The notes under the pieces: generated by a model
Seen by the model: the letters and a program-made list of their open reading frames with translations, nothing else
What the model was told of the DNA's origin: nothing
The model's database searches: none
Shown: piece by piece, positions 6,361-63,728 of the stretch
How the letters are laid out: the number at the start of each line of letters is the position of its first letter
Position numbering within the stretch: the first letter of the stretch is position 1
Origin: Brevundimonas sp.
Lineage (GTDB): Bacteria > Pseudomonadota > Alphaproteobacteria > Caulobacterales > Caulobacteraceae
DNA: 64,000 nucleotides
NCBI RefSeq assembly: GCF_013912005.1
Contig: NZ_JACESB010000012.1
Location: 17,608 to 81,607, forward strand
Direction: 5' to 3'
Translations under genes and position numbers: made by a program

Positions 6361-6381
6361 CCGGGGTTGGCTGGCAGAATT

Positions 6382-6400
6382 ATTGCGAATGCGTCGCAAT
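6382..6400. promoter_or_regulatory. Fur-box-like 19-bp inverted repeat upstream of the siderophore receptor
   Basis: ATTGCGAATGCGTCGCAAT pairs 7 of 9 positions about a single central base, including perfect ATTGCGA/TCGCAAT arms. Size and symmetry match Fur boxes. It lies 68 bases before the receptor ATG. Similar elements occur at 6430-6444 and 14639-14657. Fur binding is inferred, not shown. Confidence 0.6.
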
Positions 6401-6429
6401 TAGGTTGCGTCTGCGGCCGAAGGTGATAA

Positions 6430-6444
6430 TGCGACCGGGTCGCA
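6430..6444. promoter_or_regulatory. Second Fur-box-like 7-1-7 palindrome
   Basis: TGCGACCGGGTCGCA is a perfect 7-1-7 inverted repeat sharing TGCGA/TCGCA half-sites with the element at 6382-6400. It ends 23 bases before the receptor start codon. Two such sites in one promoter fit co-operative iron repression. Confidence 0.5.
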
Positions 6445-6467
6445 ACTAACCTTTGCCGGATTCCCCG

Positions 6468-42717: not shown

Positions 42718-42719
42718 AG

Positions 42720-46153: not shown

Positions 46154-46199
46154 GGGGTGTCCTCCAGGCGTCCCCGGACGTCGTGGCCCGATGGATCAG

Positions 46200-46217
46200 T
46201 TTGCAAGATTTTGCAGC
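46200..46217. promoter_or_regulatory. TGCAA-GATT-TTGCA palindrome near the alpha-amylase start
   Basis: The perfect 5-4-5 inverted repeat TGCAAGATTTTGCA lies at 46202-46215, inside two TTTGCA direct copies. It is 47 bases before the alpha-amylase ATG. It shares half-sites with 41663-41682 and 46357-46381. Candidate LacI-family operator. Confidence 0.5.
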
Positions 46218-46356
46218 GCGGGCGGTTTCTGTCAATCCGGCGAGGCGACCCGCCAGAAATGCGGCCGGAACACTGGTCTCCCCCGGATTCGCAACCCTGA
46301 AGCGCGCCGTGTGCGTCACATTTCCGCCACGGTGCGGGGTCGGCGCGGCGGAGTCG

Positions 46357-46381
46357 CTTGCATGGGTGCAAGAAGTTTGCA
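46357..46381. promoter_or_regulatory. Overlapping CTTGCA/TGCAAG palindromes upstream of the maltodextrin TBDR
   Basis: CTTGCATGGGTGCAAG (46357-46372) is a perfect 6-4-6 inverted repeat. It overlaps TGCAAGAAGTTTGCA (46367-46381), a perfect 5-5-5 repeat, and another TTTGC follows at 46386. Located 60-85 bases before the TBDR start. Best operator candidate for the LacI-family regulator. Apart from these sites the 288-base gap (46154-46441) holds no gene. Confidence 0.55.
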
Positions 46382-46441
46382 TAACTTTGCGATGACGCTG
46401 GACGCTTCCACAGAAATGCGCCGGCTCCAGGGAGGATTGAG

Positions 46442-49246: not shown

Positions 49247-49267
49247 CCGGACGGACCGGTGAGATGC

Positions 49268-49297
49268 AGGGCCGCTCCGGGAGACCGGGGCGGCCCT
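49268..49297 (+). terminator. Intrinsic terminator after the maltodextrin TBDR
   Basis: AGGGCCGC and GCGGCCCT form an 8-bp outer stem (49268-49275, 49290-49297), extended by inner pairing of CCGG with CCGG, and followed by CGCCTTTTCC. It separates the receptor from the sugar MFS gene. Confidence 0.75.
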
Positions 49298-49428
49298 CGC
49301 CTTTTCCACCCCCGCGGGCCACTTTTGGTTACGGCGGAACGCAAAGCGCTGGACGCGAGCGTCGCCGGATGGAAGCAAGGGCGCTGGAGAAGGCCGCGCG
49401 CGCTTGACGCAGGCCGCCGGGGAGAGAC

Positions 49429-50730
49429 ATGACCGACACCACAGCTTCGCCGCCGTCGCGCACCCAGGGCACGGGCCTCGCCTTCGCCTATGTGACGACC
49501 CTGTTCTTCGCCTGGGGCTTCGCCACCTCGCTGATTGACCCGCTGATCGCGGCGGTGCGCAAGGTGTTCGACCTGAGCACGGCCGAGGCCATGCTGACCG
49601 CCTCGGCCTGGTTCATCGCCTACGCTGTCGTCTCGGTGCCCGCCGCCGCCGTGCTCGGCAAACTGGGCTACAGCCGCTCGATCATCTCGGCCCTGGCGGT
49701 GATGGTGCTCGGCTGCCTCCTCGTGCCGCTGGCCACGATCGTCGACTGGTACCCCGGCGTGCTGATCGCCCTGTTCGTCATCGCCTCGGGGGTGACCCTG
49801 CTGCAGGTGGCCGCCAACCCGCTGGTGGCGGCGCTCGGCTCGCGCAAGAGCTCGCACGCCCGCCTGAACTTCTCGCAGTTCTTCAACTCGCTCGGCACCA
49901 CGGTCGGCCCGTGGCTCGGCTCCACGGTGCTGCTGACCGGCGGCGTGTTCGCCGCCGGCGCAGTCGTCACCGCGGCCACCCGCGACGAGTCGCTGCGCAG
50001 CATCGACTTCGCCTTCCTGGCGCTGGGCGGCTTCTTCGCCGTCGTGGCCTTCTTCATCTTCACCGCCCGCAAGAAGATCAACGCGGCGGCGGCCGGGGCG
50101 GACGAGGGCGGCGGCGTGGCCTCGCCGCTCAAGGCCTTCGGCTCGAAGTGGGCCCTCTTCGGCGCCCTCGCCATCTTCATCTACGTCGGCTCGGAAGTGA
50201 CCATCGGCGGCCTGCTGACCAACTTCCTGCACAGCCCGACCATCCTGAACATTCCCGAGGCCGACGCCGGCCGCATGGTCAGCCTGTACTGGGGCGGGGC
50301 CATGGTCGGCCGCTTCATCGGCGCCCTGCTGCTGACCCGCGTCCGCGCGGGCGTGCTGCTGACGGTCAACACGACCATCGCCGCCGTGCTCTGCCTCGTG
50401 GTCACCCAGACCACCGGCGAGACCGCGGCCTACGCCGCCATCGCGGTCGGCTTCTTCAACTCGATCATGTTCCCGACCATCTTCACCCTGACGCTGGAGC
50501 GGTCGGGCGCGCCGGCCTCGGCGACCTCGGGCCTGCTGTGCACCGCCATCGTCGGCGGCGCCGTGCTGCCCTACATCGCCGGCCATCTGGTCGACGACGC
50601 CGCGGCGGTGTTCAACCCGGCCTTCTTCGTGCCGCTGGCCGGCTACGTCCTTCTCACCGTGTTCGCGATCGCCTGCGCCCGCTCCAAGGCCCGCGACGGC
50701 GACGTGGTGGCGGCGCCCGCCTCGCACTGA
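49429..50730 (+). CDS. FucP/GluP-type sugar MFS transporter
   Basis: The protein is 433 aa with 12 membrane helices. N-terminal TLFFAWGFATSLIDPLIAAV and the helix 4-5 segment VTLLQVAANPLVAALGSRKSS are FucP-family signatures; RLNFSQFFNSLGTTVGPWLG is also typical. It probably imports glucose freed in the periplasm by the amylase and glucosidases, a role GluP-like transporters play in related bacteria. ATG at 49429. Strong terminator after it (50752-50782). Separate promoter likely, since a terminator precedes it. Confidence 0.92.
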   Translation: MTDTTASPPSRTQGTGLAFAYVTTLFFAWGFATSLIDPLIAAVRKVFDLSTAEAMLTASAWFIAYAVVSVPAAAVLGKLGYSRSIISALAVMVLGCLLVPLATIVDWYPGVLIALFVIASGVTLLQVAANPLVAALGSRKSSHARLNFSQFFNSLGTTVGPWLGSTVLLTGGVFAAGAVVTAATRDESLRSIDFAFLALGGFFAVVAFFIFTARKKINAAAAGADEGGGVASPLKAFGSKWALFGALAIFIYVGSEVTIGGLLTNFLHSPTILNIPEADAGRMVSLYWGGAMVGRFIGALLLTRVRAGVLLTVNTTIAAVLCLVVTQTTGETAAYAAIAVGFFNSIMFPTIFTLTLERSGAPASATSGLLCTAIVGGAVLPYIAGHLVDDAAAVFNPAFFVPLAGYVLLTVFAIACARSKARDGDVVAAPASH

Positions 50731-50991: not shown

Positions 50992-51885
50992 ATGAAGTTT
51001 CGGCACATCGAGGTATTCCACGCCGTCTACCAGACGGGATCGGTCACCGGCGCGGCCCGCGCGCTCCACGTTTCGCAGCCGTCCGTCAGCAAGGTCCTCG
51101 GGCACGCCGAGGATCAGCTGGGCTTCAAGCTGTTCGAGCGGGTCAAGGGGCGACTGACGCCAACGCGGGAGGCGGACGCCCTCTACCGCACGGTGGACGA
51201 GATCTACGGACAGATGGCGTCCCTCGACACCATGGCCGACAACCTCCGGCGGGGAACGGGGGGCCATATCCGCCTGGGAGTCACCCCGACCCTGGGTCTC
51301 GGGGTGGCGCCCGATGCGATCGCGCGTTTCCGGGGCGCTCATCCCGACGTCGCCTTCGACATCCGGACCCTGAACCACGACGAGGTGCGGGGCGCTCTCA
51401 TCGCGATGGAGTGCGACATCGCCGTGAGCTACGATTCTCCCCGGCACCCGCGTCTCGCGTCGACAGCGATCGGCAGCGGCGAACTGGGCATGCTGTACAG
51501 ACGATGCGACATGCCCGACGCCCCGGCGCGGATCGACTTCGACCTGCTGCAGTCAAAGGACTGGATCGCGCTCGCCGCCGACGGCTGGGTCGCCCAGACC
51601 TGCGCCCAGGAGATCGAGCGCCGCAGGCTGCGTCTGAACGCAGTCGTCTCGGTGCGGACCTACTATGTCGCCGCAGCCCTGGTCGCGCGTGGCGTCGGCG
51701 TCACGGTCATGGACCAGCACTCGGCCCAGGCCTGCCTCACGCCCGAGATGGCGTTCCGCCCGTTCATCGAGCCGCTCCCGCTGACGATGTACTGCATCTA
51801 CCTCCAGGACCGGCCGCCATCGAAGATGATCGGGAAGTTCATCGACGTCCTGCGCCGCGAGATCGCGCAGCCGCCGCCTCCATAA
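50992..51885 (+). CDS. LysR-family regulator (DgcR-like) of the D-glutamate genes
   Basis: The protein is 297 aa. N-terminal winged HTH (FRHIEVFHAVYQTGSVTGAA, then LHVSQPSVSKVLGHAEDQLG) and a LysR substrate-binding domain (HIRLGVTPTLGLGVAPDAIARF). It sits 91 bases upstream of dgcN-dgcA on the same strand, the arrangement in which DgcR activates D-glutamate catabolism in marine proteobacteria. The effector is probably D-glutamate, but that is inferred from context. The co-directional layout is less common than the divergent LysR layout. Confidence 0.88.
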   Translation: MKFRHIEVFHAVYQTGSVTGAARALHVSQPSVSKVLGHAEDQLGFKLFERVKGRLTPTREADALYRTVDEIYGQMASLDTMADNLRRGTGGHIRLGVTPTLGLGVAPDAIARFRGAHPDVAFDIRTLNHDEVRGALIAMECDIAVSYDSPRHPRLASTAIGSGELGMLYRRCDMPDAPARIDFDLLQSKDWIALAADGWVAQTCAQEIERRRLRLNAVVSVRTYYVAAALVARGVGVTVMDQHSAQACLTPEMAFRPFIEPLPLTMYCIYLQDRPPSKMIGKFIDVLRREIAQPPPP

Positions 51886-51976
51886 CCCGCAGGTATGAAT
51901 CCGCCTCAAAACAGCAGTATGCGCGGCCGGCGCGATATCTGAGGGTTCGGTCGACGACATCGCCCGAAGGCCTCAC

Positions 51977-53014
51977 ATGCTGCCTGGTCCCTATCTGCTT
52001 CACCTCGGTTCCGCGACTGACGCCCTCGCCGTGAAGACGGCGCGGGGCGTCCTCCAGTGGCGGCCGCACGCCTGCCTCGCCCAGCGCCGACTGCCGGACT
52101 GTTCGGTCGACCTGGGACTCCCGGAGATGACCTTCGCCGAGGCGGTCGACCGGGGCGCGCGGACGCTGGTCCTCGGTAGCGCCAACGCCGGCGGGGTCAT
52201 GGGACGGGATCTGATCGACGAAGCGGTTCTCGCCCTGGAGGCCGGGCTGAACGTGGCCAGTGGCCTCCACGACCGGCTGGTCGACCAGCCCGAAATCGCG
52301 TCGACCGCCTCGCGCTGCGGACGACGTCTGTTCGATCTCCGCACGCCTCCGCACGATCTTCAGGTCGGCGCCGGCGTCCCGCGCGCCGGCTTCAGGCTGC
52401 TGACGGTGGGCACCGACTGTTCGGTCGGGAAGATGTACACCAGCCTCGCCCTCGAGCGGGGCCTGCGACAGGCTGGTCTGGCCGCCGATTTCCGGGCGAC
52501 CGGCCAGACCGGAATCCTGATCGCCGGGGAGGGGGTTCCGGTCGACGCTGTTGTCGCCGACTTCATTTCCGGCGCGGTGGAGCGCATCTCGCCCGCCCGC
52601 CACGATGGCGGCTGGGATGTGATCGAGGGTCAGGGGTCCCTGTTTCATCCATCCTATGCGGGCGTGTCGCTCGGCCTGCTGCACGGGGCTCAGCCGGACG
52701 CGATCGTCCTGTGCCATGAACCGGGGCGGCGACATATGCGAGGACTGCCCGGCCGGCCGCTGCCGGATCTGGCCGCCTGCCTTGAAGCCAACCTGGCCGC
52801 CGCCCGTCTGACCAATCCGGCCGTTCAGGCGGTCGGGGTGGCCCTGAATACCGCGACTCTGGATGAGGCCGGAAGGGCGCAGGCGATCCGCCTGGCCGAA
52901 CGGGACACCGGCCTGCCGTGCGTCGATCCTCTCATCCACGGCGTTGCGCCGATCATTGACCGGTTACTTGCATGCTACAAAACCTCTCCTGCGCGGCAGA
53001 CCGTCGGCGCCTGA
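51977..53014 (+). CDS. dgcN: D-glutamate N-acetyltransferase DgcN (DUF1611)
   Basis: The protein is 345 aa, a DUF1611 protein. The central Walker-A-like loop is VGTDCSVGKMYTSLALE, with FRATGQTGILIAGEGVPVDAVVADFISG and DVIEGQGSLFHPSYAGVSLGLLHG further on. DgcN acetylates D-glutamate to N-acetyl-D-glutamate in the cytosol. This is established for the marine Pseudoalteromonas protein; here it is assigned by family and by the adjoining dgcA. Its 3' end overlaps dgcA by 43 bases. Confidence 0.85.
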   Translation: MLPGPYLLHLGSATDALAVKTARGVLQWRPHACLAQRRLPDCSVDLGLPEMTFAEAVDRGARTLVLGSANAGGVMGRDLIDEAVLALEAGLNVASGLHDRLVDQPEIASTASRCGRRLFDLRTPPHDLQVGAGVPRAGFRLLTVGTDCSVGKMYTSLALERGLRQAGLAADFRATGQTGILIAGEGVPVDAVVADFISGAVERISPARHDGGWDVIEGQGSLFHPSYAGVSLGLLHGAQPDAIVLCHEPGRRHMRGLPGRPLPDLAACLEANLAAARLTNPAVQAVGVALNTATLDEAGRAQAIRLAERDTGLPCVDPLIHGVAPIIDRLLACYKTSPARQTVGA

Positions 53015-53958
53015 AGGCGCCGTTCCGCATCTCTCGAGGCGTGAAGACGGAGATCGAAACGGTCGTCGCCACGGTGGAACGCGAGGGCCGGATCGGTCGC
53101 GGCGAGGGGACGCCCTATCCCCGCTACGGCGAGAACACGCAATCGGTGATCGGACAGATCGAGTCGGTCCGGTCCCGCGTCGAGGCCGGTCTCGATCGAG
53201 AGAGCCTCATCGAACTGCTGCCGCCGGGCGCGGCCCGCAATGCGCTGGATTGCGCCCTCTGGGACCTGGAGGCCCGCGCCGCCGGCTCGACGGTCTCGGC
53301 CCTCCTGGGCCGGCCGCGGCCCGGCCCCTGCGTCTCGGCCCTCACCGTCAGCCTCGACTCGCCCGAACGCATGGGGCGGGCCGCGGCTGCCCTGGCCCCC
53401 GCCCCGCTGCTGAAGGTGAAGGTGGACGGTGCGGAGCCGCAGGCGCAGATCGAGGCCGTGCGCGCCGCCGCGCCCACGGCCCGGCTGATCGTGGATCCGA
53501 ACGAGGGCTGGGACCTCCAGCTGCTCAAGGACCTGCAGCCGTTTCTCCGCTCGGCCCGGGTGGACCTGGTGGAGCAGCCTCTCCCGGCGGCGGACGACGA
53601 GGCCCTCGAGGGCTACACGCCCTTGGTGCCGATCTGCGCCGACGAATCGTTTCACTCGGGCGCGGATCTCGATCGCGTGTCTTCGCGGTACCAATGCGTC
53701 AACATCAAGCTCGACAAGAGCGGCGGTCTTACTCACGCGCTTGAGCTGGAGACCCTGGCGCGCGCCCGCGGCATGATGGTCATGGTCGGCTGCATGGTCT
53801 GCACCTCCCTGTCGATCGCTCCGGCCCTGCTGCTGGCGGAACAGGCTGATTTTGTTGATCTGGATGGGCCGCTCTGGCTGGCCGACGACCACCCCGGCGG
53901 GGTGACGGCGGAGGGCGGCGTTCTCACGCCGTCCGGCGAGGCGGTCTGGCGTCTATAG
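52972..53958 (+). CDS. dgcA: N-acetyl-D-glutamate racemase DgcA (enolase superfamily)
   Basis: The protein is 328 aa, close to dipeptide epimerases. Capping N-terminal part, then the barrel with KxK lysines 148 and 150 (LLKVKVDG), metal ligands Asp175 (LIVDPNEGW), Glu201 (DLVEQPL) and Asp224 (ICADESF), and the second base lysine at 246 (NIKLDKSGG). DgcA turns N-acetyl-D-glutamate into N-acetyl-L-glutamate; an L-Ala-D/L-Glu epimerase role in murein recycling is the alternative. The dgcN neighbour favours DgcA. The ATG at 52972 lies 43 bases inside dgcN; the next start (GTG at 53041) would remove the first strand. Confidence 0.85.
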   Translation: MLQNLSCAADRRRLKAPFRISRGVKTEIETVVATVEREGRIGRGEGTPYPRYGENTQSVIGQIESVRSRVEAGLDRESLIELLPPGAARNALDCALWDLEARAAGSTVSALLGRPRPGPCVSALTVSLDSPERMGRAAAALAPAPLLKVKVDGAEPQAQIEAVRAAAPTARLIVDPNEGWDLQLLKDLQPFLRSARVDLVEQPLPAADDEALEGYTPLVPICADESFHSGADLDRVSSRYQCVNIKLDKSGGLTHALELETLARARGMMVMVGCMVCTSLSIAPALLLAEQADFVDLDGPLWLADDHPGGVTAEGGVLTPSGEAVWRL

Positions 53959-54078
53959 CCGGGAGGCATAGCGCGAAGAACAATTGGAAATACTTGCCGA
54001 GCCCCAACTGTGTCCACTTAATGACACGGGCGCGACAGACGCCGTGAGGGCGGGCTCGCATTCCAGGGGGGATTTTCG

Positions 54079-57000
54079 GTGGGATCGATCAATCTGCGTA
54101 TGCTTCTGACGGTGGGGGCTTCCGTTGCGGCGCTCGGCACCCACGCCTATGCCCAGACGCCGCCCCCGGCGTCCGGGCCGCAGGAGCAGGACGCCGCGAC
54201 CCTCGACGAAGTGGTCGTCGTCGGCTCCCAGATCCGGGGCGCGCGCGTCAACGACGCCCTCCCGGTGACCGTGCTGGAGGCTGAAGACCTTGACGGGGTC
54301 GCCGCCACCAACGGCGACGAACTGTTCCGGGCCATTCCCCAGGCCGCAGACGTGGCCTTCAACGAGTCCCAGGACGTCGGCGGGATCAACGACGCGCGCG
54401 GCGACACGGCCTCGATCAATCTGAGGGGGCTGGGGACCGGCAACACCCTGATGCTGCTCAACGGCCGGCGCATGGTGCTGCACCCGGGAACCCAGACCGA
54501 GAACCTCGTGCCGGTGACGACGGTGAACACCAACGCCATCCCGAATCTCGGCGTGCGTCGCGTTGAAGTGCTGCTGGACGGCGCCGCGGCCCTCTATGGC
54601 ACCGACGCCGTGGCGGGGGTGATCAACACGGTCCTGCGCTCCAACTTCGAGGGCTTCACCTTCGAGGCGGGGGCCGGAACGGCCGAAGGCACAGATTTCG
54701 CCCAGTATGATTTCAGCCTGCAGGCGGGTCGGGACTTCAATGGCGGGCGCACCAATCTCTCGCTGATGGCTGACTACGCCACCCGCAACGAGCTGTGGGC
54801 CCGCGAGCGCGAATACGCTCGCCACAGCGACAACCGGCCCCTGCTGGTCGGCACCCCCTTCGAGGGCGACACGGACTTCCAGAACACCTCCCTGGACACC
54901 CCGTGGGGCGAGTTCATCCGGCTGACCAACAGCTACAACACCAGCACCGCCCTGACGCGGGTCAACGGCCAGACCCTGACCACCAGCGGCGTGTTCCACG
55001 TCCAGCCCAACTACAACGAGGGCTGCGTCGCCCCCGGGATCGTCGCCGGCACCTGCTTCGACAACTCGTCGCTCTCCAGCGCCAGCACCGACAACAACCT
55101 CCGCTACAACATCAACGATGTGCGCGCGCTGACCGGGGCGAACGACCGGCTCAACGTCTTCCTGTTCGCCAACCACGAGTTCGACAACGGCCTGGAGTTC
55201 TTCGGCGAGGCCGGGGTGTACTTCGCCGACTACAACACCCAGCGCGAGCAGGAGACGCCGCTCACGGCGGCCCGCATCATCATGCCGGCGAACGCCTACT
55301 GGAACCCGCTGGGTCCGGTGGGCAGCCCCAACCGTCTGCCGGGGCTGACCTCCGGCGCAGGCAACTCCCCGTTCCCGGCCGATGGCGCGCCGCTCGCCTT
55401 GCAGGACTACCGGGTGGTGGACGCCGGGCCGCAATATGTGAACGTCGAGAGCCTCTCGACCCGCTTCCTGGCGGGGCTGCGCGGCGAGTGGCGCGGCTTC
55501 GACTGGGAGTCGGCGGTGCTGTATTCGACGTCGCGCACCGACGACACCATGCGGGCGATCAGCAGCACCCTGTTCCAGCAAGCCATCGCCCGGACCACGC
55601 CTGACGCCTACAACCCCTTCATCGGCGGCAGCCTGATCGACCCCTCGCGCGGGCCCGAGGTCGGCAATCCGCAGTCGGTGATCGATTCCTTCATGGTCGA
55701 CGTGTCGCGGATCAGCGAAACCTCGCTGGCCATGTGGGACATGAAACTGTCCCGCCCGGACCTTTTCTACATGCCGGCCGGGCCGGTCGGGATGGCCCTG
55801 GGGATCGAGGCGCGCCACGAGACCTTTGAGGACGACCGCGACGATCGCCTCGACGGCACCATCACCTTCACCAACCTGGCGGGCGAGAGCACCGGCAGCG
55901 ACGTCATGGGCGCCAGCCCGACTCCCGACACCGAAGGGGATCGCGACGTCCTGGGCGCCTTCGTCGAGTTCGCCGTGCCGCTCGTGTCGCCGGACATGAA
56001 CGTTCCGCTGGTCCACTCGCTGGACCTGCAGGTGGCGGGCCGGGCCGAGAACTATTCGGTGTTCGGCTCGGTGGCCAAACCCAAGGTCGCACTGGCCTGG
56101 CGCCCCGCCTCGTGGATGATGCTCCGCTCGGCCTGGTCGCAGGGCTTCCGGGCGCCGAACCTGCCGCAGCTCTACGAGGAGGGCGTCGAACGTGCGAACA
56201 CCCGCTCGGACTGGGCGCGGTGCGACATCGAGGTGCGGGCCGGTCGCGTGCCGGACTTCGACTCATGCTCGGTCGGCGTCTCGTCGGTCAGCCAGCGCTC
56301 GGGCAGCACCGAGCTCAAGCCGGAGGAGTCGGAGAACTTCACGGCCGGCCTGGTGGTTGAGCCCCGTTTCCTGCCGCAGGGCTGGGGCGAGCTGACCTTC
56401 ACCGTCGACTACTGGAACGTGCGCCAGGAAAACCTGATCGGCATTTTCGGCGACGCCAACGCCCTGACGCTGGACTATCTGCTGCGCGCCCGCGGCAGCT
56501 CGAACCCCAACGTCGTGCGCGCCGCGCCGACCCAGGAGCAGGTGGACGCGGCCGCCGGGACGGGCCTCGCGCCGGTCGGCACCCTCCAGTACGTGATCGA
56601 CCACTACCGCAACCTGCAGCCGCGCGAGGTCGATGGCGTCGACTTCGGCATCTACTATGATCTGGACGACACCCCGTGGGGCGATTTCAGCTGGCGGCTC
56701 AATGCGGCCAAGCTGCTGACCTTCTACCAGGAGCCGAGCGAGGACGCCGCGGAGCTGCTGGCGGCGCAGGCGGCGGGCGAGATCGATCCGAGCATCCGCA
56801 TCGTGGGGGCCGAGGACCTGCGCCTGCAGAACGGGCTGCCGGAGTGGCGAGCCACCTCGACCGTGACCTGGCGGAACGGCGCCTGGGGCGCCGGCCTGTA
56901 CAGCAGCTATGTCAGCGAGGTCTATGACACCAGCGCGACCCTGCCGGACGGCACCCAGTGGGTGGTCGACGACTGGCTGACCCACAACGTCTACCTGCAG

Positions 57001-57168
57001 TACGAGTTCGACGGCGAAGGTCCGTTCAACGACACGCGCCTGCGGATCGGCGTGCGCAACATCGAGGGCAAGGATCCGCCTCTGGCCGACCAGTCGTTCG
57101 GCTACATGGGCAGTCTGCACTCGAACCGGGGGCGCTGGTTCTACGCCACCTTGCGCAAGCGTTTCTGA
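54079..57168 (+). CDS. TonB-dependent receptor of the gamma-glutamyl/D-glutamate locus
   Basis: The protein is 1029 aa in the outer membrane with a GTG start after GGGGGGA. Signal peptide cleaved after HAYAQ; plug with LDEVVVVGSQIRGARVNDAL, INLRGLGTGNTLMLLNGRRM and VRRVEVLLDGAAALYGTDAVA; long barrel ending WFYATLRKRF. The length and plug style match receptors annotated for peptides or oligosaccharides rather than siderophores. It sits between dgcA and an acidic amino acid symporter with two gamma-glutamyltransferases, so its cargo may be gamma-glutamyl peptides or polymer fragments. The 120 bases before it (53959-54078) contain GTGTC/GACAC half-sites (54010-54027) of unknown meaning. Confidence 0.9.
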   Translation: MGSINLRMLLTVGASVAALGTHAYAQTPPPASGPQEQDAATLDEVVVVGSQIRGARVNDALPVTVLEAEDLDGVAATNGDELFRAIPQAADVAFNESQDVGGINDARGDTASINLRGLGTGNTLMLLNGRRMVLHPGTQTENLVPVTTVNTNAIPNLGVRRVEVLLDGAAALYGTDAVAGVINTVLRSNFEGFTFEAGAGTAEGTDFAQYDFSLQAGRDFNGGRTNLSLMADYATRNELWAREREYARHSDNRPLLVGTPFEGDTDFQNTSLDTPWGEFIRLTNSYNTSTALTRVNGQTLTTSGVFHVQPNYNEGCVAPGIVAGTCFDNSSLSSASTDNNLRYNINDVRALTGANDRLNVFLFANHEFDNGLEFFGEAGVYFADYNTQREQETPLTAARIIMPANAYWNPLGPVGSPNRLPGLTSGAGNSPFPADGAPLALQDYRVVDAGPQYVNVESLSTRFLAGLRGEWRGFDWESAVLYSTSRTDDTMRAISSTLFQQAIARTTPDAYNPFIGGSLIDPSRGPEVGNPQSVIDSFMVDVSRISETSLAMWDMKLSRPDLFYMPAGPVGMALGIEARHETFEDDRDDRLDGTITFTNLAGESTGSDVMGASPTPDTEGDRDVLGAFVEFAVPLVSPDMNVPLVHSLDLQVAGRAENYSVFGSVAKPKVALAWRPASWMMLRSAWSQGFRAPNLPQLYEEGVERANTRSDWARCDIEVRAGRVPDFDSCSVGVSSVSQRSGSTELKPEESENFTAGLVVEPRFLPQGWGELTFTVDYWNVRQENLIGIFGDANALTLDYLLRARGSSNPNVVRAAPTQEQVDAAAGTGLAPVGTLQYVIDHYRNLQPREVDGVDFGIYYDLDDTPWGDFSWRLNAAKLLTFYQEPSEDAAELLAAQAAGEIDPSIRIVGAEDLRLQNGLPEWRATSTVTWRNGAWGAGLYSSYVSEVYDTSATLPDGTQWVVDDWLTHNVYLQYEFDGEGPFNDTRLRIGVRNIEGKDPPLADQSFGYMGSLHSNRGRWFYATLRKRF

Positions 57169-57183
57169 CCCGGCCTCCGCCGC

Positions 57184-57207
57184 GCCCGCGACGGGACCGT
57201 CGCGGGC
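57184..57207 (+). terminator. Hairpin after the glutamate-locus TBDR
   Basis: GCCCGCGACG (57184-57193) and CGTCGCGGGC (57198-57207) are perfect 10-bp complements around GGAC. It follows the receptor stop by 15 bases and precedes the symporter ATG by 30, so it may only partly terminate, setting receptor expression apart from the downstream genes. Confidence 0.6.
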
Positions 57208-57237
57208 CTGCCGTTCCGTTCGTGCGAGTTTGCCTGA

Positions 57238-58542
57238 ATGACTGATTCCACCCCGACTGCGCCGCCTGCTCCACGTGGGGGGGCGGCCAGCCGCCTGGCC
57301 CGGCTGTGGTTCGGAACGGCGCTCTGGAAGCGGATCCTGCTGGGTCTGGCTCTCGGGGTGGCGGCGGGGCTGGTGCTGCAGGAGCGGGCGGTCGACATCA
57401 AGTGGATCGGCGACGCCTTCGTCCGGCTGATCCGGATGCTGGTCGTGCCCCTCGTGTTCGTCACCATCGTCTCCGGGGTCGCGGCCATGTCCGAACCCCG
57501 GAGGCTGGGCGCGATCGGCCTGAAGACGATCGGGCTGTACTTCGGCCTGATGCTGATCGCCAGCGCGCTGGGACTGTTCATCGGCACGGTGCTGCAGCCG
57601 GGGCTGGGCGTGGACCTGAGCGGCGTCGTTCCCCTGCCCGCAGCCGGGGCTCCGCCGAGCTTCGGCGAGACCCTGATGAACGTCATCCCCACCAATCCCT
57701 TCGCCGCCCTCGGCTCGGGGGACGTGCTGGCGGTGATCTTCTTCGCCCTGCTGCTCGGCGTCGGAATCCTGGTGGTGGGCGAGGCGGCGCAGCCTATGCA
57801 GCGCGTCTTCGACGCCGGCTCCGCGGTGATGCTGCAGATCACCTACTTCGTCATGGAGCTGGCTCCCTTCGGCGTGTTCGCCCTCATCGCCTGGGTGGTG
57901 GGCGTCAGCGGACCGGACGCCTTCGTCAGCGTCTTCAAGCTGGCCCTGTGCGTCATCATTGGCTGCGCCGTGCAGACGCTGGTCGTCCATGGCGGGCTGA
58001 TCCGCCTGCTCGGCCGCCTGCCTGTGCGACCCTTCTTCCGCGACGTGACGGACGCCATCGTCGTCGCCTTCACCACCTCGTCCAGCTCGGCCACCCTGCC
58101 GGTGGCGATGAGGGTGGCTCAGCGGAACCTCGGCGTCGCGCCGGTCGTCGCCTCGACCACCCTGCCGATCGGCGTGACGCTGAGCATGGATGGCACCGCC
58201 CTCTACGTCGCGCTGCTGGCCACCTTTTCGGCCCAGGTGTTCGGCGTCGAACTGACCGTGGTCGACTATCTGATGGTCATCGCCGCCACCACCCTGGTGG
58301 CGATCGGCACCGCGCCCGTGCCCTCCGCCTCCCTGTTCATCCTCGCCGCCGTGCTGTCGGTGATCGGCATCAGCGCCGAGCAGACGGCGCTGATCGTCGG
58401 CTTCATCCTGCCGTTTGACCGGCCGCTGGACATGATGAGGACGATCCCGAACTGCACCAGCGACCTGTCGGTCGCCGTCGTGGTCGCCCGCTCCGAGAAC
58501 GAACTGGACGTCGAGTCCTATCGCGCCCACCCGGTCGAATGA
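57238..58542 (+). CDS. Dicarboxylate/acidic amino acid:cation symporter (GltP/DctA family)
   Basis: The protein is 434 aa with eight predicted membrane helices and two re-entrant loops. The serine-rich motif is AFTTSSSSATLPVAM. The substrate-site helix reads DMMRTIPN at 398-405: Asp398, Arg401, Thr402 and Asn405 line up with the residues that bind aspartate or glutamate in GltPh, so an acidic amino acid substrate is well supported. It imports glutamate, plausibly D as well as L, for DgcN/DgcA. Stop overlaps the first ggt start as ATGA (58539-58542). Confidence 0.92.
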   Translation: MTDSTPTAPPAPRGGAASRLARLWFGTALWKRILLGLALGVAAGLVLQERAVDIKWIGDAFVRLIRMLVVPLVFVTIVSGVAAMSEPRRLGAIGLKTIGLYFGLMLIASALGLFIGTVLQPGLGVDLSGVVPLPAAGAPPSFGETLMNVIPTNPFAALGSGDVLAVIFFALLLGVGILVVGEAAQPMQRVFDAGSAVMLQITYFVMELAPFGVFALIAWVVGVSGPDAFVSVFKLALCVIIGCAVQTLVVHGGLIRLLGRLPVRPFFRDVTDAIVVAFTTSSSSATLPVAMRVAQRNLGVAPVVASTTLPIGVTLSMDGTALYVALLATFSAQVFGVELTVVDYLMVIAATTLVAIGTAPVPSASLFILAAVLSVIGISAEQTALIVGFILPFDRPLDMMRTIPNCTSDLSVAVVVARSENELDVESYRAHPVE

Positions 58543-60275
58543 GGTCATCAGCCGTGCGCCTTGTCCGAACCTCCGTCCTCGCCGCCGCCGTCCTCCTTGT
58601 CTGGCCTGCCGCCGCCGCGTCCCAGACCGCCGCCCCCCGGGAGCGGCCGCGTCAGGCCATGGTCGCGGCCGCCAATCCGGCGGCGGTCGAAGCCGGGCTG
58701 GATATCCTGCGGCAGGGCGGCAGCGCCATCGACGCGGCGGTCGCCGTCCAGGCGATGCTGGGACTGGTCGAGCCGCAGAGTTCAGGGATCGGAGGCGGCG
58801 CCTTCATCATGCATTTCGCCGCGGCCACCGGGGAGGTCGACGCCTACAACGGGCGCGAAACGGCCCCGGCGGCGGCGACGCCGGAAATGTTCCTGGACGA
58901 CTCCGGCCGGCCGTTGCCCCGCAGTCAGGCGATGCTGGGGGGCCGCGCCACCGGCGCGCCGGGGGCGGTGCCCGTGCTGGCCCTGGCGCATGCCCGACAT
59001 GGCCGTCTGCCGTGGGATCGGCTGTTCGACGGCGCGATCGCCCGGGCCGAGGAGGGGTTCGAGGTGACGCCGCGACTGGCCGAGCACATCCACGGCTCCT
59101 TCCCCCAGGCCTCGGCGCCGGACGTGCGGGCCTACTTCTCCCGGCCCGACGGTTCCCCGATGCAGGTCGGCGACCGGCTGAGGAACCCGGCGTATGCGGC
59201 CGTGCTGCGACGCATCGCGACCGAAGGCGCCGCGGCGCTCCAGCGCGGTCCGGTCGCCGAGGGCATCGTCGCCCGCACGACCGCCGGGCCCCTGCCTGGC
59301 CGGATGACCCTTCAGGATCTCGCCGCCTACCGCCCCGAGGCCGTGGAGCCGGTGTGCGGGCCCTACCGGGCGTACGTCATCTGCACGCCGCCGCCTCCTT
59401 CCAGCGGGGCGGCGCTGCTGCAGCTGATGGCCCTGCTCGATCGCACCGACGTCGCCGGACGAGGGCCCGAAGATCCGATCGCCTGGGTGCGCTTCGCCGA
59501 GGCCAGTCGGTTGATGTACGCGGATCGGGACCACTATTTCGGCGATCCGGCCTTCGTCGAGACGCCCGTGGCGGGCCTGCTTGATCCGGCCTACCTGGAG
59601 ACCCGCGCCGCGCTGATCGGCGAGATCGCGGCCCCGGAGGCTCCCCTGCATGGCCAGCCCCCGGGCGCCGCCGTTCCCGGACCGGACGCCACGGCCGAGC
59701 CCGGCGGCACCACCCACTTCGTGGTGGTCGACTTCGACGGCAACGCCGCCTCGGTGACCTCGACGGTGGAATCCTATTTCGGCTCGGGCCGGATGGTGGA
59801 GGGCTTCTTCCTCAACAACCAGCTGACCGACTTTTCCTTCGCTCCGGTCGACCGGGATGGCGCGCCGGCGGCGAACGCGGTGGCCGGCGGGAAGCGGCCA
59901 CGCTCGTCGATGTCGCCGGTCATCGTTCTGGACCGGGAGGGGCGGCTGGTGGCGGCGCTCGGCTCACCCGGCGGCAACGCCATCCTGGCCTACAACGCCA
60001 AGGCCCTGTTGGGCCTGCTCGGCTGGGACATGTCGCTGCAGGACGCCTTCGCCCTGCCAAACGTCGTCGCCCGCGGCGAGACGTTCAACGGCGAGGCGGC
60101 CAGGTTGCCACAGCCGCTGCGCGAGGAACTGTCGCGGCGCGGCGTCGAGGTGCGGCCCGGAAGCGGCGAGGCCTCGGGTCTGCACGGGGTGACCGTCGGG
60201 CCGGACGGCCGGCTCACGGGCGCGGCCGATCCCCGGCGCGAGGGGACAGCGGTGGTTCTGGAGGAACAGCCATGA
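58539..60275 (+). CDS. ggt: Gamma-glutamyltransferase, canonical copy
   Basis: The protein is 578 aa and exported (LVRTSVLAAAVLLVWPAAAA). Ntn-hydrolase that self-cleaves before Thr391 (GGTTHFVVVD), the catalytic nucleophile. The arginine that holds the glutamyl alpha-carboxylate is present (NGRETAP, Arg106). The small-subunit motifs RPRSSMSPVIV and LGSPGGNAIL are also normal. It should split gamma-glutamyl bonds in the periplasm, freeing glutamate for the symporter encoded just upstream. Both ends overlap neighbouring genes by 4 bases, so symporter, ggt and hydrolase are translationally coupled. Confidence 0.94.
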   Translation: MRSSAVRLVRTSVLAAAVLLVWPAAAASQTAAPRERPRQAMVAAANPAAVEAGLDILRQGGSAIDAAVAVQAMLGLVEPQSSGIGGGAFIMHFAAATGEVDAYNGRETAPAAATPEMFLDDSGRPLPRSQAMLGGRATGAPGAVPVLALAHARHGRLPWDRLFDGAIARAEEGFEVTPRLAEHIHGSFPQASAPDVRAYFSRPDGSPMQVGDRLRNPAYAAVLRRIATEGAAALQRGPVAEGIVARTTAGPLPGRMTLQDLAAYRPEAVEPVCGPYRAYVICTPPPPSSGAALLQLMALLDRTDVAGRGPEDPIAWVRFAEASRLMYADRDHYFGDPAFVETPVAGLLDPAYLETRAALIGEIAAPEAPLHGQPPGAAVPGPDATAEPGGTTHFVVVDFDGNAASVTSTVESYFGSGRMVEGFFLNNQLTDFSFAPVDRDGAPAANAVAGGKRPRSSMSPVIVLDREGRLVAALGSPGGNAILAYNAKALLGLLGWDMSLQDAFALPNVVARGETFNGEAARLPQPLREELSRRGVEVRPGSGEASGLHGVTVGPDGRLTGAADPRREGTAVVLEEQP

Positions 60276-61180
60276 AGAGACTGATGATCGCGGCGGCCCT
60301 GGCAGCCGCCTGGCCGGTCGCGGGGGCGGCGCAGGAGCCGGCCGCTGCGGCGCAGGAGCCGGCGGCGGCGGTTTCGCCGGCGCCGCCGCAGCGGGTGACA
60401 TTCCCCAGCCTCGACGACGGACGCACCGAACTGGTGGGCTATCTGTACGCGCCGGCGCGGGCCGACGCGGCGGCGCCGGCCGTGGTGCTGATGCACGGCC
60501 GCGCGGGCGCCTATTCCACGCTCGCCGACGGAGTCTACGACGCCAGCACCCTGAGCCAGAGGCATCAGTTCTGGGCCCGGTACTGGGCCGGGCGCGGCTA
60601 CTACGCTCTCATCGTCGACGGCTTCGGGCCCCGCGGCTATCCGGGCGGCTTCGGCCGGGGCAGCTACAGCCAGCGCCCGGCGGCGGTGAATGAGGTGACG
60701 GTGCGTCCGCTGGACGCCTACGGAGCGCTGCAGTACCTGCGGACGCTCCCCGGCGTGGATGACGACCGGATCGGCCTGATGGGCTGGTCCAACGGCGGCA
60801 GCGCCACCCTGGCGACGATGGCCGACGACAAGCCCGGCGACATGCGGCGGCTGGGCTTCCGCGCCGCGATCGCCATGTATCCCGCGTGCGGTCTGCACAA
60901 CCGCTTCGACCGCACGGGCTACAGCACCTATGCGCCGGTCCGGGTCTTCATGGGCACCGATGACGAGGAGGTCTCGCACGATCGCTGTCGCGACCTGATC
61001 GGAACCGCGCGCGCCCGTGGCCACGACGTGGAGTTCACCTCCTATCGCGGCGCGACCCACAGCTTCGACGATCCGGGCCGCCGTCGGCAGTCGGTTGCAG
61101 CCAACGCCCGCGCCACGGCCGACGTCCGCCAGAAGCTCGGCGAATTCTTCGACGCGGCTCTGGCTCCCCGCGCCGAGTAA
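60272..61180 (+). CDS. Exported dienelactone-hydrolase family protein
   Basis: The protein is 302 aa with a signal peptide (MKRLMIAAALAAAWPVAGAAQ) followed by a short duplicated AAAQEPAA linker. Catalytic triad: Ser173 (LMGWSNGGSAT), Asp230/231 (FMGTDDEEV) and His263 (GATHSFDD). The dienelactone-hydrolase name reflects fold; the nucleophile is serine rather than the cysteine of classical enzymes, so an esterase or amidase activity is more likely. Its ATG overlaps the ggt stop, and a second ggt follows 9 bases later, so it probably acts on a related periplasmic substrate. Confidence 0.88.
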   Translation: MKRLMIAAALAAAWPVAGAAQEPAAAAQEPAAAVSPAPPQRVTFPSLDDGRTELVGYLYAPARADAAAPAVVLMHGRAGAYSTLADGVYDASTLSQRHQFWARYWAGRGYYALIVDGFGPRGYPGGFGRGSYSQRPAAVNEVTVRPLDAYGALQYLRTLPGVDDDRIGLMGWSNGGSATLATMADDKPGDMRRLGFRAAIAMYPACGLHNRFDRTGYSTYAPVRVFMGTDDEEVSHDRCRDLIGTARARGHDVEFTSYRGATHSFDDPGRRRQSVAANARATADVRQKLGEFFDAALAPRAE

Positions 61181-61189
61181 GGAGTCCCC

Positions 61190-62944
61190 ATGCGCCTGCG
61201 CTGGCTGAAGTCCCTGGCGGTGGCCGCCGCCCTGGCGGCCGTGACCTGTCCCACGGTCGCGCAGGAGGCGCCCGCCCAGGCCCGCCCCGGCCTCGGCTCG
61301 GGCGGGGACATCGTCAGCTACGGCCAGATTCACCAGCCGGTGATCGGACGGGGCGGCATGGTGGTCAGCCAGAGCGGCCTGGCCACACAGGTCGGGGTCG
61401 ACATCCTTCGCGGCGGGGGCAACGCCGTCGACGCCGCTGTGGCGGTCGCCTTCGCCGAGGCCGTGACCCTGCCGCGGGCCGGCAACATCGGCGGCGGCGG
61501 CTACATGCTGCTGCACATGGCGGCGACGGACGAGCGGCCGGCGGTGGATCTGGCCATCAACTACTACGGGGTGGCGCCGCGGGCGACGACGCCGGATCTG
61601 CTGCTGGACGACAACGGGCGTTTCGACCGCGGCGCGCCGGCCGGTTTCCTCAACGTGTCGGTGCCCGGCACCGTGGCGGGGCTCTGGGAGGCTCACCGCC
61701 GCTTCGGCTCCCTTCCGTGGGCCGATGTGGTGGCGCCGGCCGTGACGCTGGCGGAGGAGGGGGTGATCCTGACCGACGGGGAGGCGGACGCCACGGCGGG
61801 CCGGGCGGCCGTGCTGGCGCGCGACCCCGGCGCGCGCGAGGCCTATCTGAAGCCCGACGGGACGCCCTATCGCGCAGGCGAGTTGTTCCGACAGCCGCAG
61901 CTCGCCTGGAGCCTGCGGCAGATCCAGCAGGGGGGCGCCGACGCCTTCTACAGGGGCGAGTTGGCCCGGCGCATCGTCGCAGGCGTCCAGGCCGGCGGCG
62001 GCATCATGGATCTGCAGGACCTCGCCGATTATCGCGCCGAGGTGACCGACCCGATCTGGTCCAGTTACCGCGGGCGGCGCATCGCCGTCATGCCGCCGAC
62101 CGCGTCGGGGGTCAGCGTGGCCGAAGCCCTGAACCTGCTGGAGCATTTCCCTCTGCGGGAGATGGGCTGGGGCAGCTCCGACAGCCTCCATCTGATCGCC
62201 GAGGCGATGAAGGTGGTCTCGGCCGATCGCCGGCTGATCGGCGGCGGACCTCAGTGGCGGACCCCGGCGGCCGGCCTGGCCAGCAAGGGGTTCGCCGCGG
62301 AACGGGTGCGGCTGATCTCGGCCGACCGCGTGCTGGGCGAGGGCGACGTCGCCGCCGGCGATCCCTACCCATGGGAGAGCCCGGACACGACCCATTACTC
62401 GGTCGCCGATGCGGCGGGCAACGTGGTCAGCAACACCTACACCCTGTCCAACTCCTACGGCGCGCATGTCGCGCCCCCCGGAACCGGCATCCTGCTGAAC
62501 AACTCGCTCGACAACTTCTCCTGGGGGCGCCGGGAGGACGGCCCCGCCGCCAACCAGCCCGCTCCGGGAAAGCGGCTGGGTTCGACGATCACGCCGCTGA
62601 TCGTCTTCGGCGAGGACGACAGGCCGTGGCTGGTCACCGGGACGCCCGGCGGCGGCTACATCATCGCCACCATGGTGCAGTTGATCGTCAATGTGGTCGA
62701 TCATGACCTGAACATCGCCGAGGCGGCCATGAGGCCGCGGATCAACCAGGGGCCGGCGGGGCGTCCGCTCGAGCTCGAGGGCGGCTTCTCGCCGGAAGTG
62801 GAGCGGCTGCTGCGCGCCCGCGGCCACCGGACCCGGGGCTCGGCGACCATGGGCAGCACCCAGTCGATCATGATCGAGGGCGATCGATTCCTCGGAGCGG
62901 CCGACACCCGGCGGCCGGACGCGCTGGCGCTGGGGGTGCGCTAG
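61190..62944 (+). CDS. Gamma-glutamyltransferase family protein, divergent copy
   Basis: The protein is 584 aa and exported (LKSLAVAAALAAVTCPTVAQ). Ntn-hydrolase with catalytic Thr400 (SPDTTHYSVADAAG) and small-subunit motifs GKRLGSTITPLIV and TGTPGGGYIIATM. Unlike ggt upstream, the segment that normally holds the alpha-carboxylate arginine (xREMAP) reads NYYGVAPR, so the key arginine is missing at that position. It may therefore prefer substrates without a free alpha-carboxylate, or act on another acyl group. Last gene of the symporter-ggt-hydrolase-ggt operon. Confidence 0.9.
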   Translation: MRLRWLKSLAVAAALAAVTCPTVAQEAPAQARPGLGSGGDIVSYGQIHQPVIGRGGMVVSQSGLATQVGVDILRGGGNAVDAAVAVAFAEAVTLPRAGNIGGGGYMLLHMAATDERPAVDLAINYYGVAPRATTPDLLLDDNGRFDRGAPAGFLNVSVPGTVAGLWEAHRRFGSLPWADVVAPAVTLAEEGVILTDGEADATAGRAAVLARDPGAREAYLKPDGTPYRAGELFRQPQLAWSLRQIQQGGADAFYRGELARRIVAGVQAGGGIMDLQDLADYRAEVTDPIWSSYRGRRIAVMPPTASGVSVAEALNLLEHFPLREMGWGSSDSLHLIAEAMKVVSADRRLIGGGPQWRTPAAGLASKGFAAERVRLISADRVLGEGDVAAGDPYPWESPDTTHYSVADAAGNVVSNTYTLSNSYGAHVAPPGTGILLNNSLDNFSWGRREDGPAANQPAPGKRLGSTITPLIVFGEDDRPWLVTGTPGGGYIIATMVQLIVNVVDHDLNIAEAAMRPRINQGPAGRPLELEGGFSPEVERLLRARGHRTRGSATMGSTQSIMIEGDRFLGAADTRRPDALALGVR

Positions 62945-63146: not shown

Positions 63147-63728
63147 ATGATCCGACGTCTGTTGCGAAGCCTCGCCGCCGCCCTGCTGCTGGCGCTCGCC
63201 GCCGCTCCGGCCTGGGCCGAGGTGACGCTGACCTTCTACGCCCATCCCGGAGCCCGCATCCGCGGCGGCGAGCTGCTGTTCCCCCACGCCTTCGTGCACG
63301 CCGTCGGCGTCCTCGACGACACGGGGGAGCCGGTCGACTGGGCGGCGGGCTTCACGGCGAAGAACCCCGGACCGCAGTTGCTGTTCACGCGCGGGACGGG
63401 CGTGGTCCTCGAGCCCGACCCGCGCTACGTCGGCGAAGGGCGGCCCTATCTGCAGCTGACCGTCGCGGACGAGGTCTATCGCGCGGTCCGCGCCCGCGCC
63501 GACTGGTGGAACGGCCCCGAGGGCTCGGTCTACGAGCTGCGCCGGCGCAACTGCATCACCTTCGTGGCTGATCTCGCCCGCCTGGCGGGACTGCGGACCG
63601 CGGACGAACCGTCGATGAAGCCCGGGACCTTCCTTGAGGCCACGGCGGCGCTCAATCCGGCGGCGGCGTGGCGGGAGGGGGCCCTCGAGGCGACGGACCG
63701 GTCCCTGGACGCCGGCGCCGCGCGGTAG
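63147..63728 (+). CDS. Exported protein of unknown function with a conserved NCITF segment
   Basis: The protein is 193 aa with a signal peptide (LLRSLAAALLLALAAAPAWA). Mature residues include TLTFYAHPGARIRGGELLFP, HAFVHAVGVL and RRRNCITFVADLARLAGL. A histidine early and one cysteine late would fit a permuted papain-like (NlpC/P60-type) fold, but this is only a resemblance. I do not recognise the family. The ATG at 63147 opens the signal peptide; the 202 bases before it (62945-63146) hold no convincing gene. Confidence 0.75.
   Translation: MIRRLLRSLAAALLLALAAAPAWAEVTLTFYAHPGARIRGGELLFPHAFVHAVGVLDDTGEPVDWAAGFTAKNPGPQLLFTRGTGVVLEPDPRYVGEGRPYLQLTVADEVYRAVRARADWWNGPEGSVYELRRRNCITFVADLARLAGLRTADEPSMKPGTFLEATAALNPAAAWREGALEATDRSLDAGAAR

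Follow-up and report, generated by a model that had tools for sequence, protein, structure and literature searches.

What use might a bacterium make of a locus in which the D-glutamate enzymes DgcN and DgcA stand next to a TonB-dependent receptor (TBDR), a glutamate symporter and two proteins of the gamma-glutamyltransferase (GGT) family? The question is raised by positions 50992-62944 of a 64,000-nucleotide stretch of Brevundimonas sp. DNA (assembly GCF_013912005.1, contig NZ_JACESB010000012.1; C4:17608-81607), the whole of which is called the window here. Eight genes follow one another on its + strand: a LysR-type regulator, DgcN, DgcA, the TBDR, an SDF-family symporter, GGT1, an alpha/beta-hydrolase and GGT2. 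A first-pass annotation, made from the letters of the window alone, had listed these genes in this order and on this strand, and the Pfam profiles and NCBIfam curated models by which they are named here agree with it. The source genome (2.89 Mb, Caulobacterales-type) is estimated at 100% completeness and 0.48% contamination.

The D-glutamate of peptidoglycan is a large, slowly used pool of nitrogen and carbon, and to our knowledge the import and opening of foreign murein peptides by Gram-negative bacteria is poorly known. In this work it was found that the eight genes are a real, recurring cassette, built of two modules which associate and separate rather than of one fixed unit. We propose, with confidence that is about evenly balanced, that the cassette may serve the scavenging of D-Glu-containing gamma-linked peptides, most likely murein stem peptides. 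It is a defined gene set to test, and it names a probable outer-membrane importer.

Results

Recurrence of the cassette and its two modules

Within the genus the cassette is sporadic, since DgcN occurs in only 3 of the 131 genomes: that of the window, that of the Brevundimonas metagenome-assembled genome L005, and L120, where a more distant DgcN stands in another setting. L005, the nearest named relative at the DgcN locus among the matches listed, shares 81% DNA identity with window positions 50992-62939, the alignment falling into two pieces that are 49 window bases apart. Nothing in the window matches the 2.3 kb that precede the LysR gene of L005; its contig, from a genome 75% complete, ends at GGT2, so that the left flank alone is covered. 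In L120 (genome G375) genes for an esterase and an M32 carboxypeptidase come after the distant DgcN-DgcA pair.

LysR, DgcN, DgcA, TBDR and symporter together with both GGTs were found in seven Caulobacteraceae genomes (the window, L005, L121, L122, L157, L158 and L162). The hydrolase is present in six of the seven, the copy of L157 being cut; the stretch of L158 ends before that position. In the five Caulobacter-group members (L121, L122, L157, L158, L162) protein identities are 47-69%, with 76% for one cut hydrolase, and L167 has the first five genes, its symporter being cut at the contig end. Outside the family, G178 of the same order carries DgcN, DgcA, a D-aminoacylase, the TBDR (38%) and the symporter, in a gene order different from that of the window, and beyond the symporter a beta-lactamase-fold gene and both GGTs on the opposite strand, plus a LysR gene. 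Related arrangements were met in two Gammaproteobacteria. In Pseudoxanthomonas L056 the TBDR (44%), a GGT with Asn at position 433 (see below) and LysR lie divergent from DgcN-D-aminoacylase-GltS, no DgcA being found adjacent; in Luteimonas L036 DgcN-DgcA-D-aminoacylase-GltS stands by an Asn433 GGT, a GGT1 and a far less similar TBDR (26%). The co-occurrence in other genomes that had been proposed as a check was thus observed with both GGTs in five Caulobacter-group genomes and in G178 of another family.

The downstream part also occurs separately. The Brevundimonas-group loci L165 and L166 contain TBDR, symporter, GGT1, hydrolase and GGT2 at 79-84% protein identity without adjoining dgcNA, and their main DNA matches to the window are confined to 54202-62942. 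In both the module is preceded by an extracytoplasmic function (ECF) sigma factor (FecI) and FecR, and the TBDR has an STN domain; in the Caulobacter-group loci L168, L169 and L171 the TBDR and GGT2 likewise follow FecI/FecR-like genes (STN, FecI and FecR were confirmed at the domain level for L165 and L168). LysR stands by TBDR-GGT2 without dgcNA in L170 (a 9 kb contig) and L217, within the stretches covered. On a tree of 25 TBDRs, nine of them dgc-linked including the long-branched L056, the dgc link needs five changes, at least four of which are forced by well-supported branches; therefore dgcNA and the receptor must have been joined or parted more than once. The full scavenging unit of the first-pass annotation holds in that a D-Glu pathway is joined to import, periplasmic hydrolysis and a symporter, and fails in that the unit is not fixed.

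The TBDR search in the family matched 195 of 390 genomes at E<=1e-100, many of them distantly. We read 20 TBDR regions, 15 from the top 20 and five lower-scoring ones; of the other top-20 regions two had been read earlier, two belonged to the window and L005, and G502 was omitted. Gene calling in the loci relied on a codon score that had been tuned with high-GC genes; L117 and L118 were read by tblastn, and L132 was left out.

Two gene groups accompany some of these loci. A protein of about 910 amino acids adjoins the TBDR in L168 (13682-16414), L169, L171 and L172, and the L168 copy belongs to the M14 carboxypeptidase family, which includes gamma-D-Glu-diaminopimelate (DAP) amidases. After GGT1 a lyase resembling dihydrodipicolinate synthase, a short-chain dehydrogenase/reductase and an RraA-like aldolase are found in L122 (16254-18704, by domains) and in L157 and L158 (by similarity), which suggests that these Caulobacter-group versions also degrade a side product that is released.

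Donor sites of the two GGTs

At ten donor-site positions (E. coli numbering) GGT1 has R114, T391, T409, E411, Q430, D433, S462, S463, G483 and G484, and by these residues its donor site is canonical, including the nucleophile T391 and the oxyanion pair G483-G484. GGT2 of the window has Y, T, T, S, S, N, S, T, G and G at the same positions. According to PMC8062742, the alpha-amino group of the donor is held in B. subtilis GGT by Glu423, Glu442 and Asp445, which correspond to E. coli 411, 430 and 433 by a 12-residue offset, and the carboxylate by Arg113 and two serines. With Y114, S411, S430, N433 and S462-T463, GGT2 has all three alpha-amino contacts and Arg114 replaced. The two GGTs are not equivalent, because GGT2 is without the residues that bind a free alpha-amino group. 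The scores against TIGR00066 (cut-off 357.85) are 354.8 bits for GGT1, 3 under the cut-off though it passes that of PF01019, and 443.8 bits for GGT2, above it. The annotation of two gamma-glutamyltransferases can be kept as far as the fold of both is concerned; GGT2, having lost canonical donor-site residues, is not counted as a canonical member.

Engineered and natural relatives of such a pocket have been described. In E. coli GGT the D433N exchange abolished transpeptidation, kept 82% of hydrolysis and brought acylase activity on glutaryl-7-aminocephalosporanic acid, the B. subtilis E423Y/E442Q/D445N variant increased acylase activity 963-fold, and class IV cephalosporin acylases have Asn at that Asp position (PMC8062742). 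Bacterial GGTs are also reported to accept D-Gln as donor, to hydrolyse gamma-D-Glu-Trp, and both to form and to cleave gamma-D-glutamyl compounds (PMC8062742). GGT2 is predicted to be a hydrolase of gamma-bonds in N-acylated glutamate, for example in L-Ala-gamma-D-Glu-DAP.

The pocket and lid vary among relatives. Caulobacter-group GGT2s keep Arg114, have Gln or Glu at 430 and Gly at 411, and possess full-length lids, whereas the lid of the window GGT2 is shortened and without Tyr444. The lid region of GGT1, also without Tyr444, is four residues shorter than that of E. coli and six longer than that of the lid-less Bacillus GGT. The genome holds two further GGT genes (G000:C9:35-1582 and G000:C38:132889-134451), one a canonical GGT1 relative (59-60%), the other a member of a divergent group that has Leu at 433.

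The Asn433 clade and its association with the receptor

Asn433 was present in 19 of 19 distinct TBDR-linked GGT2s read, the cut GGT2 genes of L160 and L170 being left out of the count. Among 40 other GGTs of the order the residue was Asp in 23, Asn in five and another in 12; all 40 stem from genomes with DgcN and were taken in list order, TBDRs being disregarded and known cassette genes left out (both G178 genes were already known to lie near DgcN). In a quick tree the Asn433 rows formed one clade of 25 rows, with a branch support (SH-like approximate likelihood ratio test, SH-aLRT) of 96, inside the E. coli-type GGTs; L001, L002, L003, L008 and L010 were dropped from this tree as duplicates and BG_L216 as matching neither GGT.

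In the order sample the cassette TBDR type adjoins four of the five Asn433 genes (L117/L118, L217, L218 and L219; not L220) and one of 22 Asp433 genes, that one being GGT1 of the G178 cassette (Fisher p 0.0014). The surroundings of 22 of the 23 Asp433 genes were read, L212 being the remaining one, and in three of these stretches (L268, L276, L221) there is a TBDR of another type. A class-wide search with a GGT2 profile (E<=1e-150) matched 20 of 385 genomes. The 19 genes besides that of the window all have Asp433, and none has DgcN, DgcA, the cassette TBDR type, LysR or the symporter nearby, within mostly about 8.5 kb per side (about 5 kb for L243, 2.6 kb on one side for L259). It follows from the order sample and the class-wide search that the altered pocket occurs together with the dedicated receptor. 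The pocket of the Asn433 clade argues for an activity that current models label as ordinary gamma-glutamyltransferase.

DgcN, DgcA and their company in other genomes

DgcN scores 503 bits against NF041892, above its curated cut-off of 480, and its nearest solved chain is 7xrj. DgcA reaches 433.8 bits with NF042940 (curated cut-off 400) and, with the model of the E. coli-type L-Ala-D/L-Glu epimerase (NF011708), 310.7 bits, below the cut-off of 343. The DLD motif was considered as a mark separating DgcA from this epimerase and rejected: it is kept in 107 of 107 DgcA rows, and both of its Asp residues are also found in E. coli YcjG. LysR is the probable regulator of the cassette; 40 of the 80 best named loci have a LysR (>=40% identity) no more than about 10 kb away from DgcN.

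These named loci are the best 80 of at least 579, lean to near relatives and include some with short flanks; neighbours were counted within about 10 kb of DgcN or as far as the contig allows. The counts were 70 for DgcA, 40 for a D-aminoacylase-like enzyme, 45 for a glutamate symporter (SDF 35, GltS 11), 25 for a beta-lactamase-fold peptidase, 21 for a PBP4-like (S13) protein, 15 for GGT, 15 for an AmpG-like permease, 14 for the penicillin-amidase family, five for DAP decarboxylase, four for M19 dipeptidase, four for the cassette TBDR type and one for the cassette hydrolase. The AmpG-like representative scores 330 bits, below the cut-off of 350, and the D-aminoacylase-like one matches structures of D-aminoacylase and N-acyl-D-glutamate deacylase. 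Of 33 Sphingomonadales selected by name, alongside which the window genome was taken, 15 have AmpG near DgcN, where 0.37 would be expected; for GGT the count is 12 of 50 genomes and the expectation 0.78. Both expectations come from whole-genome gene counts, and since related species are not independent the Poisson values are guides. The 50 genomes are the first of the best 80 with full or nearly full flanks; a looser listing adds an edge fragment in L037. At position 433 the GGTs near DgcN in the 80 loci have Asn in L005, L008, L010, L036 and L056, Asp in L011, L012, L018, L020, L023 and L025, and another residue in L050, L058, L064 and L074. Taken together, the neighbours of dgcNA appear to be the company of peptides with D-residues, murein above all.

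In Sphingomonadales (L017, L019, L022, L028, L060, L069, L072 and others) dgcNA islands hold a second AmpG-like permease, PBP4 and beta-lactamase-fold peptidases, and many also carry a penicillin-amidase-family enzyme; these are probably murein-use islands. M81/MlrC-like metallopeptidase genes also lie near dgcNA, three before dgcN in L042 (one at 5154-6743) and one in L040, the domain having been checked in one L042 gene and the rest assigned by cluster c28. MlrC acts on microcystin, which contains gamma-linked D-Glu.

Receptor, symporter and hydrolase

The window TBDR has a hydrophobic N-terminus and, by Pfam, no STN signalling domain. Examined for a FecI/FecR-type arrangement, it was found to stand behind LysR-dgcNA instead, and it is the relatives behind FecI/FecR in L165 and L168 that carry STN. 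The symporter has Asp398, Arg401, Thr402 and Asn405, exactly as the first reading of the locus had claimed. This is the residue set of a Glu/Asp site, and the nearest solved chains are aspartate/glutamate transporters; we take these four to be substrate-site residues, and Asp398 and Thr402 should presumably also separate the protein from C4-dicarboxylate carriers. In the hydrolase Ser173, Asp231 and His263 are invariant in eight aligned sequences and are read as a putative catalytic triad. A closer identification of this protein was set aside, its matches to dipeptidyl peptidases and esterases being weak and partial only.

Discussion

Proposed function and its alternatives

In the proposed scheme the TBDR would carry peptides or muropeptides over the outer membrane. 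In the periplasm GGT2, no longer requiring a free alpha-amino group, might cut the gamma-bond of N-acylated D-Glu, as in L-Ala-gamma-D-Glu-DAP, GGT1 could cut gamma-bonds of N-terminal Glu, as in gamma-D-Glu-DAP, and the alpha/beta-hydrolase may perform another cut, being a candidate for freeing D-Glu from L-Ala. The SDF symporter would then take free D-Glu (or L-Glu) into the cytoplasm, where DgcN might acetylate D-Glu, DgcA racemise the product to N-acetyl-L-Glu, and a deacetylase encoded outside the locus yield L-Glu; LysR would turn the set on. Gene content and order, recurrence, residues and the evolutionary association are seen directly in the sequences. The steps from the symporter to L-Glu draw on family knowledge, while we infer what the substrate is, what GGT2 and the hydrolase do to it, and how the genes are regulated.

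The choice of substrate is narrowed by the parts. Because of dgcNA it should contain D-Glu, because of the symporter free Glu should cross the inner membrane, and because of the Asn433 pocket the gamma-bond that is cut should belong to a Glu with blocked alpha-amino group. Ligands that are large or scarce call for a TBDR, which free D-Glu or glutathione could do without. L-Ala-gamma-D-Glu-DAP fits the three points concerning Glu, as does internal poly-gamma-D-Glu, and murein is preferred because of the neighbours of dgcNA in other genomes. The Pseudoalteromonas strain CF6-2 is said to be the one in which DgcN and DgcA were defined. It grows on peptidoglycan and on D-Glu (PMC6962226). A further step is tentative at best: GGT2 might found a subfamily hydrolysing the gamma-amide of N-acylated (D-)glutamate, with the TBDR as a dedicated importer of murein peptides. 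If true, there would be gamma-D-Glu-DAP amidases of GGT descent and, together with dgcNA, an outside-in route by which a Gram-negative bacterium eats foreign murein down to D-Glu via the N-acetyl route, which would seemingly be new.

Several observations weigh against the murein proposal. The dgcNA-free module of L165 and L166 means that the substrate of that module need not contain D-Glu. With the loss of Arg114 in the Brevundimonas GGT2 the contact to the alpha-carboxylate of the glutamyl donor is altered too, and in B. subtilis the D445N exchange cost 90% of the activity, acylase activity being gained (PMC8062742). The cassette is without AmpG, PBP4 or amidase, and its murein link comes from the dgcNA loci of other genomes. 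A D-aminoacylase query found no match in the window genome or in that of L005, with matches in control genomes, and the enzyme is present in G178, in most Caulobacter-group and in many Sphingomonas loci. The GGTs near DgcN are of several types, and in the order sample a GGT lies within about 10 kb in 5 of 67 DgcN genomes (read by eye) against 1.34 expected (p 0.012); nearness of GGT to DgcN as a general rule was rejected on this count. In addition, scans of the cassette gave 0 promoter-like sites, with no consensus signal, and two terminator-like sites against 2.9 in shuffles. Finally, DgcA equals E. coli YcjG at 60 of 64 conserved positions (107 DgcA rows, duplicates included), and as far as its residues indicate the active site cannot tell DgcA from an L-Ala-D/L-Glu epimerase.

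Scavenging of poly-gamma-glutamate (PGA), which we regard as rather unlikely, would have the TBDR import D/L oligomers, GGT1 trim their ends, GGT2 cut inside and DgcNA use the D-Glu. Internal residues of PGA are N-acylated by their neighbour, which suits GGT2, the TBDR-to-GGT2 module is also found without dgcNA, and the shortened lids of GGT1 and of the window GGT2 recall the lid-less GGTs that are said to accept PGA in open clefts (PMC8062742); still, the GGT1 lid exceeds that of the lid-less Bacillus enzyme, the Caulobacter GGT2 lids are complete, and the murein-type peptidases and AmpG-like permeases of other dgcNA loci would be needless. Glutathione or other gamma-L-glutamyl peptides are an improbable substrate. 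Here the GGTs would free L-Glu for the symporter, with dgcNA only for co-imported D-Glu, much as in the known scheme of a periplasmic GGT feeding glutamate, e.g. in Helicobacter (PMC8062742), and the canonical donor site of GGT1 would fit. The recurrence of dgcNA with the unit in two families and the lost alpha-amino contacts of GGT2 would both be left unexplained. Porins suffice for a molecule of this size, and a dedicated TBDR would be unneeded. Among the substrates first suggested, murein peptides are favoured by the dgcNA neighbours, poly-gamma-glutamate keeps a minor place and glutathione is the least likely.

It is similarly doubtful that DgcA acts on L-Ala-D-Glu like YcjG, with epimerisation of the dipeptide and another or additional role for DgcN. 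The likeness to YcjG extends to both Asp of DLD, the motif that presumably binds the amino group of the dipeptide, and 1jpd is almost the best solved-structure match of DgcA. On the other side stand the curated models, DgcA being above the DgcA cut-off and below that of YcjG, as well as the overlap of dgcA with dgcN, the pairing of DgcA with DgcN in 70 of the 80 best loci, and a symporter of a type that imports single amino acids. That two unrelated operons merely lie end to end is very improbable. The 120 bases between dgcA and the TBDR gene and the separate occurrence of the downstream part would allow it, and the promoter and terminator scans give no evidence either way; against it, the same join exists in Caulobacter-group genomes (47-69% identity) and, in other order, in G178.

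Gene arrangement and surroundings

The coordinates are given in Table 1. The dgcN and dgcA genes overlap by 43 bases. As the first-pass annotation had stated, the last four genes are coupled or nearly so, with 4-base overlaps at SDF/GGT1 and GGT1/hydrolase and a 9-base gap between hydrolase and GGT2. By a crude hydrophobicity check signal-peptide-like starts were found in the TBDR, GGT1, the hydrolase and GGT2, and not in DgcN or DgcA.

Table 1. Genes of the cassette, with positions in the window and the models by which they were named
Gene	Position	Strand	Model
LysR-type regulator	50992..51885	+	PF00126/PF03466
DgcN (DUF1611), D-glutamate N-acetyltransferase by family	51977..53014	+	NF041892
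DgcA, enolase superfamily, N-acetyl-D-Glu racemase by family	52972..53958	+	NF042940
TonB-dependent receptor, plug and barrel	54079..57168	+	PF07715, PF00593
SDF-family symporter, glutamate/aspartate type	57238..58542	+	PF00375
GGT1, predicted exported gamma-glutamyltransferase	58539..60275	+	PF01019
Predicted exported alpha/beta-hydrolase	60272..61180	+	PF01738/PF00326
GGT2, predicted exported GGT-fold hydrolase, altered donor pocket	61190..62944	+	PF01019

A foreign origin by composition was set aside, the GC fraction of the cassette (0.68-0.74) being similar to that of the rest of the window (0.68-0.76). Upstream, 41707-50730 holds a LacI-type regulator, alpha-glucosidase/amylase-like genes, a TonB-Xanth-Caul receptor and a GluP-type major facilitator superfamily (MFS) transporter, the last two named by NCBIfam model and the regulator and hydrolases by eye; these genes look like a separate alpha-glucan uptake locus. 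Inclusion of the upstream receptor and MFS transporter (46442-50730) in the unit was rejected, as they group with LacI and the glycoside hydrolases and the similarity to L005 starts at 50992. After GGT2, near the contig end, there is a 193-amino-acid reading frame (63147-63728) with no Pfam match at E<=0.001.

Comparison with known systems

The first-pass annotation knew of no description of this combined unit, and in the open-licence literature we likewise found none of a TBDR, GGT, symporter and D-glutamate genes together; in its accessible part PMC3751524 merely tabulates a GGT gene. The parts are of known kinds, and the combination, the module swap and the receptor-tied Asn433 GGT clade are new as far as searched.

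The catabolism of D-glutamate by DgcN, DgcA and DgcR in Pseudoalteromonas CF6-2 was reportedly described in an ISME J paper of 2023. Common to it and the cassette are adjacent DgcN and DgcA over their cut-offs and a neighbouring regulator, and the cassette adds a TBDR, a glutamate symporter, two GGT-family hydrolases and an exported hydrolase. In E. coli murein recycling (AmpG, MpaA and YcjG) D-Glu and DAP are likewise reclaimed from stem peptides, and DgcA resembles YcjG; the window genome also has an AmpG. The cassette differs from that system in predicted periplasmic cutting by GGT-family enzymes, TBDR uptake, import of free D-Glu and N-acetylation. The DgcN-DgcA route is also used in Shewanella (PMC10845958). 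For the peptidoglycan recycling of Caulobacter the accessible part of PMC13046382 covers AmpG, AmiR and NagZ, and DgcN, YcjG and MpaA do not occur in it.

With the periplasmic GGT of Helicobacter the cassette would share gamma-glutamyl hydrolysis outside the cytoplasm followed by use of the glutamate, whereas a TBDR and D-Glu catabolism are not described with that enzyme in the accessible part of PMC8062742. Class IV cephalosporin acylases and the D433N variants (PMC8062742) have in common with GGT2 the Asn which replaces the alpha-amino-binding Asp; what sets GGT2 apart is its membership of a naturally occurring, TBDR-tied clade within the E. coli-type GGTs. In FecI-FecR-TBDR modules at sister loci of Brevundimonas and Caulobacter the TBDR type of the cassette is met again, there carrying STN and preceded by FecI/FecR, whereas the window TBDR is found without STN behind LysR-dgcNA.

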